A DNA stretch of 64,000 nt, taken from Olivibacter domesticus (lineage in GTDB: Bacteria > Bacteroidota > Bacteroidia > Sphingobacteriales > Sphingobacteriaceae). Within the stretch, counting starts at the first letter, position 1, and the number at the start of each line of letters is the position of its first letter. This document shows, piece by piece, positions 21,574 through 41,457 of this stretch. Position numbers and translations under genes: made by a program. The DNA is taken from assembly GCF_900109575.1 (NCBI RefSeq), contig NZ_FOAF01000003.1, positions 62,001 through 126,000 of the forward strand, written 5' to 3'. The notes under the pieces were generated by a model. That model was not told the DNA's origin. It did not search any database and saw only the letters and a list, made by a program, of their open reading frames with translations.

Positions 21574-22038
21574 TTATTTTCTGTTTTCTTCTGCTAAAAA
21601 AGCATTATGATCATTTAAAAGAGATCTGAAATTATTCATTTTTACCCAATATGCTATAAAATAGAAAAAATAAACCAAGTTTAGACCAACAAGGAGGTTA
21701 ACAGATAAAGGAAACATTGTCACGACATATAATATACCTACTGTTATTCCTGTTGAACGCCCAGGGGATTCTTCTTCCGCGATCTTCCGATCATAAAATT
21801 CATTTGTCAATGAGTCTGACATCCGTTTTGCTAATTCAAAGTTCCAATAAATATTGAAAATCGGGATCAGAATTAACCATGCTTCCCACGGTTTCATATG
21901 TCTATTAGCGGGGTCGATCAACTTTAATGTTGCTCGAAAGGTGTTGGCATAAAAGGCTTTAATAATTAAACATATTAACGCAAAAACCCCTGCAGCAATT
22001 ATCGTTTCACGGTCTAAATTATTTATATTAAATTCCAT
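21574..22038 (-). CDS. Four-helix membrane protein (DUF4328-like)
   Basis: About 154 residues with hydrophobic segments near 12-30, 50-68, 100-120 and 120-137. The PWEAWLILIPIFNIYWNFELAKRMSD-type segment (seen as WEAWLILIPIFNIYWNFELA) resembles DUF4328 proteins. I prefer ATG 22038; an in-frame GTG two codons upstream is possible. It lies 8 nt before the Nif3-like gene. Function unknown. Confidence 0.7.
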   Translation of the reverse strand: MEFNINNLDRETIIAAGVFALICLIIKAFYANTFRATLKLIDPANRHMKPWEAWLILIPIFNIYWNFELAKRMSDSLTNEFYDRKIAEEESPGRSTGITVGILYVVTMFPLSVNLLVGLNLVYFFYFIAYWVKMNNFRSLLNDHNAFLAEENRK

Positions 22039-22182
22039 TTGCACGAAAGTACATCAAAAACTTAGATATCTTGGATTTTATGTGCAAATAACAAAAACGG
22101 AATATAAACCGCCAAATCATCTGCCACTCATCCACCCTTGAATAGGGTTTACAAATGAAAACATACATAATACAAGTAAATC

Positions 22183-40467: not shown

Positions 40468-40704
40468 TTAGTTAACGTTTTTTTCTAAGTAAGCGACAGC
40501 TTGTCCAACAGTGCTGATGGTTTCAGCTTGGTCGTCAGGGATAGCTACGTTGAATTCTTTTTCAAATTCCATGATCAATTCTACGGTGTCTAATGAGTCA
40601 GCACCTAAATCATTAGTGAATGAAGCCTCTGGTGTAACTTCACTTTCGTCAACACCTAATTTCTCAACGATAATTGCTTTAACTCTTGAAGCGATATCAG
40701 ACAT
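40468..40704 (-). CDS. acpP: Acyl carrier protein
   Basis: 78 residues, acidic, with the phosphopantetheine attachment serine in [17 protein letters not shown]. It carries acyl chains for FabF. It is the first gene of the acpP-fabF-rnc operon, with a promoter-like pair of elements 34-64 nt upstream of the start. Confidence 0.97.
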
Positions 40705-40737
40705 GATTTTTATGGTTTAATGTTTAATAAATCAGTG

Positions 40738-40768
40738 CAAAGAAAAATAAAATTCAGCAAAATTCAAA
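40738..40768 (-). promoter_or_regulatory. Candidate acpP promoter
   Basis: On the minus strand TTTG (plus-strand 40765-40768), then 19 nt, then TTTCTTTG (40738-40745), one base off the TAnnTTTG consensus. It is close enough to serve acpP-fabF-rnc. Confidence 0.5.
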
Positions 40769-40974
40769 CCTTTTTAAGTTTTACCCAAAATTACTTCCTT
40801 TTTTGTTCATCCTAACGAACAGATAATTTTATTTAATATGCAACTGTATAGACGTTTAGGAGACCTTTAAAAACGATATACGTAGAAGGATACTCCGCCT
40901 AATATTTATATTCGTTTACTTAGTTTCCGAATTTAACGTCCTTACTCCCTCGCAAATTATTATTTTTAACGACT

Positions 40975-41018
40975 AAACTTAGATAAATTGCATTAAAAAA
41001 TCAATTTATCTAAGTTTG
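40975..41018 (+). promoter_or_regulatory. Promoter embedded in a 16-bp perfect inverted repeat
   Basis: AAACTTAGATAAATTG (40975-40990) and CAATTTATCTAAGTTT (41002-41017) are perfect complements around an 11-nt spacer. The left arm ends in the TTG of a -33 element and, 20 nt later, the right arm forms the -7 box TAAGTTTG (41011-41018). A repressor dimer bound to the arms would cover both promoter elements. The gene start at 41038 is 19 nt beyond. The rest of the 333-nt gap (40705-41037) shows nothing else besides the acpP promoter. Confidence 0.7.
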
Positions 41019-41037: not shown

Positions 41038-41457
41038 TTGAACAAACTAACACTAAAATACGAATTAGATATTGATTTTAATTTAATAGCAATTACCTCT
41101 CCCTTAAAGGACTATAGGTTATGCTATTATATTAATAAAGTTACAGGGCTTGACCTATATAAAATTGAGGAACATGAAATTTGGTTTGAGAGCCAGCAGC
41201 CTACTTATTTTGGACGGTACACCTATGAAGACGTAAATAATGACACCTTTTATTTCCTTTTAAACAATAAAGGTGTTGAAGGAGGTGTGTTGATTCCAGA
41301 AATGAAGGTGACCGATTTCTTTCTATTGGTTAAAAATGCCATTGATGAAGAGCTCCTTCTCTGGCAAATAACTCAAATAAACAATCTTGCGGATGTAGTG
41401 GTTGCTTCAGAAATTGACCCACATAAATTGAAATCCAAGGAAAATTTAGTATTTTAG
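41038..41457 (+). CDS. IPExxxDY-type family protein
   Basis: 139 residues, found only in Bacteroidota as far as I recall. The hallmark motif is present in the form LIPEMKVTDFFLLVKN, with Phe in place of the final Tyr. An N-terminal LTLKYELDIDFNLIAI and the central RYTYEDVNNDTFYFLLNN also fit. The start appears to be TTG at 41038, 19 nt after the -7 box, since no ATG is near. Function unknown. The next gene in this direction is pyruvate kinase, another common neighbour. Confidence 0.8.
   Translation: MNKLTLKYELDIDFNLIAITSPLKDYRLCYYINKVTGLDLYKIEEHEIWFESQQPTYFGRYTYEDVNNDTFYFLLNNKGVEGGVLIPEMKVTDFFLLVKNAIDEELLLWQITQINNLADVVVASEIDPHKLKSKENLVF

Follow-up and report, generated by a model that had tools for sequence, protein, structure and literature searches.

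The window that we analyzed is a 64-kb stretch of DNA from an Olivibacter genome (family Sphingobacteriaceae; 6.78 Mb in 23 contigs). It contains a 333-nt gap between two divergent genes, an acpP-like gene on the reverse strand and a gene for an IPExxxVDY-family protein on the forward strand, and in this gap lies an inverted repeat (40975–41017) whose arms, AAACTTAGATAAATTG and CAATTTATCTAAGTTT, are complementary at 16 of 16 positions and enclose a loop of 11 nt (Table 1). The product of the forward gene was recognized by an NCBIfam model, while a Pfam search at 1e-5 returned no family for it. Because the region lies between divergent genes, we rejected a reading of the palindrome as a terminator. 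The acpP-proximal block of the gap is so well conserved in four other Olivibacter genomes that it probably represents a separate acpP promoter.

Table 1. Features of the window that bear on the palindrome; positions count from the first letter of the window.
Feature	Positions	Strand	Basis or remark
Left arm of palindrome	40975–40990		16/16 pairing; counterpart absent in four other Olivibacter genomes
Right arm of palindrome	41002–41017		with G41018 forms the repeated motif CAATTTATCTAAGTTTG; identical in L003, L004
–33 element TTG, rightward	40988–40990	+	ATTGC kept in L003, L004
–7 element TAAGTTTG, rightward	41011–41018	+	window sequence; motif matches in genome
Possible leftward –33 TTG	41002–41004	–	geometry only
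Possible leftward –7 TAAGTTTA	40974–40981	–	geometry only; absent in relatives
IPExxxVDY-family gene, likely target	41038–41457	+	NCBIfam NF033205, E 1.5e-30; TTG start
acpP-like gene, divergent	40468–40704	–	named from sequence; acyl carrier protein match in relatives
Conserved acpP-proximal block, probably acpP promoter	40705–40796	–	93–96% identity over 71–98 nt, four other Olivibacter genomes
Core copy of dispersed promoter element	40984–41018	+	positions 74–108 of a 108-bp query; 89%, E 7.9e-6
Second candidate copy, diverged, full-length	22057–22168	–	R1 E 0.0014

Read rightward, the palindrome carries TTG, N20 and then TAAGTTTG, and thus the spacing of about 19–21 nt between TTG and TAnnTTTG. 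The latter is the Bacteroidetes promoter motif (PMC10309648). Promoter elements are present on both strands, and the leftward series TTG-N20-TAAGTTTA described in an earlier note on this DNA is indeed there; its –7 element ends in A. The same note had the arms ending with the –33 and –7 elements, which is correct for TTG. However, the final G41018 lies outside the palindrome, so that of the eight letters in the –7 element the right arm holds seven.

The earlier description as a 16-bp palindrome was borne out, and the repeat exceeds what random sequences produce. No other perfect inverted repeat in the window with a loop of up to 30 nt is as long; arms did not exceed 12 nt in ten random sequences of equal length with the first-order composition preserved, or 15 nt when the 333-nt gap was randomized 3000 times. 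Folded as single-stranded DNA, this region has a z-score of –6.3 against shuffles. The repeat had also been called unusually long, which is true within the window and against random sequences but not against the genome itself: 1.2 Mb of it contain 25 perfect repeats with arms of at least 16 nt and loops of 3–25 nt (one shuffled copy of this stretch had no arm above 13 nt). Consequently, the length alone is unremarkable for this genome. Several of the 25 repeats (G000:C10, 1–1200000) are AT-rich and have no obvious terminator look.

The palindrome is real, yet its perfect form was seen in one species only. Allowing up to three mismatches, the two-arm pattern has a single occurrence in its own genome, the palindrome itself. 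In the other four Olivibacter genomes, the orthologous promoters contain neither the left arm (0/4) nor any perfect repeat with arms of at least 9 nt (0/4). In the orthologous promoters L003 and L004, CAATTTATCTAAGTTTGC is identical and ATTGC is kept at –33, and the leftward sequence is not mirrored; L005 and L014 share even less with the window site. The earlier note had proposed that one dimeric protein shuts the promoter, and had suggested looking for the palindrome elsewhere in the genome and at orthologous loci. The single occurrence and the absence of the left arm from all four relatives leave that proposal unsupported; of the two outcomes that the note had named as counting against it, no conservation in relatives is what we found.

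What does recur is the right half. The right arm plus G41018, CAATTTATCTAAGTTTG, occurs with up to two mismatches at 66 places of the genome, 15 of them exact (two of the 66 are the palindrome itself), and the reversed control at none. With up to one mismatch it is present in 37 of 101 family genomes, with 20–38 occurrences in each of five Olivibacter genomes, 2–22 in nine genomes of genus g4, 1–16 in six of g20, and 0–4 elsewhere; the reversed control gave 6 matches altogether in the 101 genomes. A blastn search with the intergenic region found many further matching places in all five Olivibacter genomes. We rejected a generic promoter consensus as the sole explanation: TTG-N20-TAnnTTTG occurs 56 times in 1.2 Mb (21 in the reversed control) and its spacer is not strongly conserved, whereas TATCTAAGTTTG was found 7 times against none in its control, which points to a special promoter class beyond the consensus.

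We fetched 31 own-genome places among the blastn matches listed and, likewise among the matches listed in other genomes, 20 of 23 from G001, 20 of 23 from G004 (the IPExxxVDY locus set aside), 16 of 16 from G091 and 4 of 16 from G100. One locus, L072, matched in blastn without having the motif and was excluded from the site counts. A TTG stands 19–21 nt before TAnnTTTR at 74 of the resulting 90 motif sites: at 30/30 sites of the own genome, a figure biased because the blastn query contained TTG, and at 44/60 sites of other genomes, which had been chosen by the –7 half alone. The absence of the –33 TTG from 16 of the 90 counts against the explanation that we favor. Most TTG-less sites in G001 and G004 have a common alternative upstream half like TTCGCGAATGTCAAG, which replaces TTGCATATAAAAG before CATTTTATCTAAGTTTG (L139, L141, L142 and L146 in G001; L178, L185, L186 and L187 in G004), and at prfA the two types of upstream half swap between orthologues (L187 versus L071 and L143).

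The motif is most likely a promoter, judging from its placement. Counting ORFs of 100 aa or more that begin no farther than 250 nt away, we found a co-oriented one downstream at 79 of 88 sites and a divergent one at 38 of 88 (the short loci L173 and L176 were left out of the 60 other-genome sites), against 78/200 and 83/200 for random points in the same test. Generic TTG-N20-TAnnTTTG sites had a similar, weaker bias (38/50 and 25/50), a further point against the favored explanation. In L066, L140 and L201, a tRNA-Arg starts 11, 11 and 8 nt past the motif, respectively, a spacing consistent with transcription starting a few nucleotides downstream. If the motif is the tRNA promoter, the start must lie in that gap, which would place the hairpins described below outside the transcript; in L201 the tRNA is preceded by a full copy of the element. 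Between species, moreover, the block from TTG to TTTG is kept and the sequence upstream has diverged (for example, L149/L182 and L071/L143). The view of the window site as the promoter of the IPExxxVDY gene, also taken from the earlier note, is thus supported by the conserved right half, by the related sites in the genome and by their placement before genes and tRNAs.

By Pfam, the products encoded downstream include serine hydroxymethyltransferase, TGT, a poly(A) polymerase-type protein, GcvH, glycerol-3-phosphate dehydrogenase and release factor 1, among others; elsewhere they include PheT-like and NuoA-like proteins, a class-V aminotransferase, TilS, tRNA synthetases (class I and His), and members of the sigma-70 and Fur families. 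There is no evident common theme. The idea of a glycine regulon was dropped, as it had rested on by-eye naming of proteins, and an identification of L062 as kbl was wrong, the product being a CofH/MqnC-type radical SAM protein. The motif is found at sigma-70-family and Fur-family genes in both G001 and G004 (L137/L173 and L151/L192, the families having been named for L137 and L151), and these genes may possibly encode regulators linked to the motif.

The longest copies of the motif belong to a dispersed element of about 112 nt, which consists of stem P1 (TTTCCTC/GAGGAGA), stem P2 (GATAAATTGCTTTTATATGCA/TGCATATAAAAGCAATTTATC) and then TAAGTTTG, with TTG-N20-TAnnTTTG at its 3′ edge. L044, L045 and L047 are 97–98% identical to L046 over about 106 bp that end exactly at TTTG, and lie in unrelated places. 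Near-full copies are present in all five Olivibacter genomes, plus one in G091 (L163), and full copies precede genes for tRNA-Arg, release factor 1 and PheT-like, NuoA-like and SufS-like proteins; in many other copies the promoter block is present and the stems are not. Run on 201 genomes from the order, a covariance model of the element, R1, whose E-values are rough, placed it in at least 40 of them and in at least 5 of 15 genera, with up to at least 16 copies per genome, all lower bounds since 18 candidate stretches were scored per genome.

Both stems covary, with the proviso for all such counts that the copies are related, so that changes of pairs are not independent events. An alignment of 23 near-full copies among the 81 distinct ones in the fetched loci (A1) supports P1 and a 21-pair P2, the structure of P2 having been written by hand from the fold of one copy. 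Nine of 28 pairs are changed on both sides, compared with 3.3 ± 1.2 in shuffled alignments (0/500) and 3–5 for slid structures; in P1, a C-G pair is replaced by A-U in four copies and by U-A in another. RNAalifold recovered only P1 from A1 because P2 is shifted by gaps. The arms of full copies pair better with their own partners (31.5) than with swapped ones (28.1 ± 0.6; 0/20,000), and a stem score of at least 13 is reached at 11 of 93 motif sites, against 0.9–1.8 with halves swapped. A second alignment (A2) comprises 20 copies picked among the R1 matches listed, and hence favors good matches to the model; the copies represent three other genera with nine genomes in all. All 20 have TTG-N20-TAnnTTTG, which the selecting model itself contains, and in this alignment, which was fitted to the structure, the covariation score is 0.167 against 0.075 ± 0.007. 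The basal pair of P2 is G-C in 12 of them, A-U in seven and C-G in one; the seven A-U copies have TTTATTTAGGTTTG (six) or TTTGTTTAGGTTTG (one) in place of TTTATCTAAGTTTG.

Rfam covariance scans of 21 loci (20 places), at E up to 1 and at gathering cut-offs, returned no above-chance match over the element: the only matches were to microRNAs (E 0.19–0.66, far below cut-offs), and L263 has a DUF805b match some 1.2 kb from it. We consequently rejected a known Rfam RNA. The set comprises 4227 families and is assumed to include Pedo-repair, listed as RF01715 in PMC2864571. A search of the openly accessible literature gave no account of this element or of similar ones; a description may exist elsewhere.

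Copies of the element are more alike within genomes (identity 0.793) than between them (0.744; 0/2000 label shuffles), also after removal of three near-identical own copies (0.780 versus 0.739), which means recent copying or homogenization within genomes. A pair at the same locus, L046/L205, is 74% identical, or 83% by blastn. Mobility of the element is plausible. In L220, upstream of prfA in G003, a full element directly follows an older core, CATTTTATCTAAGTTT, as if inserted at CTAAGTTT; at prfA, three relatives have one core only. Searches for an empty site matched only the element itself, in three genomes, for L044, and for L047 led to a G003 orthologue that carries a core-like promoter rather than an empty site. 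A REP/RAYT system was rejected, given that the own genome has no Y1 transposase (PF01797), which was present in 2 of 16 genomes (G002, an Olivibacter, and G005). In a check for a phage, plasmid or viral-contig origin, two exact patterns and one blastn query matched nothing.

How, then, does the window site relate to this element? We think it rather probable that it is the promoter of the IPExxxVDY gene and that the DNA carrying it is a derived copy of the dispersed element, shortened to the core. Repetition of the motif, its placement and orientation, the covariation of stems in full copies and the absence of the left arm in relatives are the observations in support. The full two-stem model R1 did not match the site significantly (E 0.11, an unrelated chance-level match having E 0.2), so that descent from the full element, which we favor, is argued from the 35-nt core. 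The second candidate copy in the window lies between two co-oriented genes, the next one being 21574–22044 (–).

According to the core-copy reading, RNA polymerase, presumably with the vegetative sigma factor, would recognize the –33 TTG and the –7 TAAGTTTG and start a few nucleotides downstream. The stretch GATAAATTG...CAATTTATC of the window resembles the base of P2, and the outer AAACTTA/TAAGTTT is new; the left arm may have arisen when mirror copying of TAAGTTT lengthened a P2-like stem base (GATAAATTG/CAATTTATC) on its outer side. We consider template switching at the quasi-palindrome the likeliest route; reverse-complement copying of this kind can generate or mend a perfect stem in a single event (PMC8794818). 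The mirror arm would then be a lineage-specific change that may add a weak leftward promoter, and the site would need no dedicated repressor. The register of the arms varies among copies, the window site being the only one of 11 strong stems with the –7 element inside an arm; L054, L062 and L160 have short stems (score 4–6) that touch it.

A rival reading is an operator, at which a dimeric repressor would bind the palindrome and block the promoter, or another regulator would bind the dyad ATTGC-N9-GCAAT, which a number of copies have between –33 and –7. The palindrome does span –33 and most of –7, and conservation of the spacer in many copies sets them apart from generic promoters; this conserved dyad would fit a bound regulator too, and we count it against the core-copy reading. 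However, no symmetrical site was found to be conserved at orthologues or repeated at co-regulated genes: the perfect form occurs once in the genome and in none of the relatives, the downstream genes share no evident theme, and the arm register differs from copy to copy. We therefore regard an operator as distinctly unlikely. Slightly better odds, though still poor ones, may be given to a bidirectional promoter whose symmetry was selected because the same –33 and –7 elements on both strands add transcripts toward acpP. The leftward letters are present, the divergent neighbor is acpP, and pseudo-symmetrical two-way promoters are described for Escherichia coli (PMC12825309). Two-way firing is possible geometrically, but the layout is confined to the own genome: the leftward half is missing in relatives, its –7 element has that final A, and acpP has a conserved upstream block of its own.

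The covarying stems upstream of genes could also mean a structured RNA leader or a small RNA, with the promoter letters at the edge being incidental. This we hold to be very improbable, as every full copy in A2 keeps those letters, the tRNA-Arg genes begin 8–11 nt past the motif, which in L201 is that of a full copy, and many copies have the promoter block without stems. A bolder extension of the core-copy reading, to which we give little credence, is that self-dispersing hairpin promoters, without a findable Rfam entry, stand before housekeeping genes across five genera or more of a single Bacteroidota order, and that the stem holding –33 and spacer is kept for promoter control (for example, by cruciform extrusion under supercoiling), with the window palindrome as an extreme version.

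Taken by itself, the window site illustrates that a perfect palindrome need not be an operator when it covers a promoter. The dispersed two-hairpin DNA element precedes many ordinary genes of one bacterial family, and its motif occurs dozens of times per genome in Olivibacter. If the element spreads, repeat copies whose covarying hairpins hold part of the promoter would be replacing the promoters of genes both ordinary and essential. It becomes testable what moves or homogenizes the copies, and whether DNA hairpins in promoter stems are functional or by-products of template switching.

Bacteroidota vegetative promoters have a TTG at –33, and the window site resembles them in both elements and their spacing. 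The motif subclass differs from them by its long conserved spacer (TTGCATATAAAAGGCAATTTATC), to which full copies add upstream hairpins. A second point of comparison is offered by mobile promoters and by small repeats dispersed in bacterial genomes (REP/REPIN, MITE-like): like these, the element forms many short palindromic copies, which resemble each other more within one genome than across genomes. It differs in that its copies mostly point at the downstream gene and carry its promoter, and the own Olivibacter genome has no Y1 transposase. With the bidirectional promoters of Escherichia coli (PMC12825309), the site shares pseudo-symmetrical DNA in which both strands carry promoter letters; here, a perfect palindrome of 16 bp, seen in one species, provides the symmetry, and two-way activity would be putative. 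Finally, mirror copying is the likeness to template-switch hairpins (PMC8794818), by analogy with which we propose such an origin for a palindrome over a promoter.
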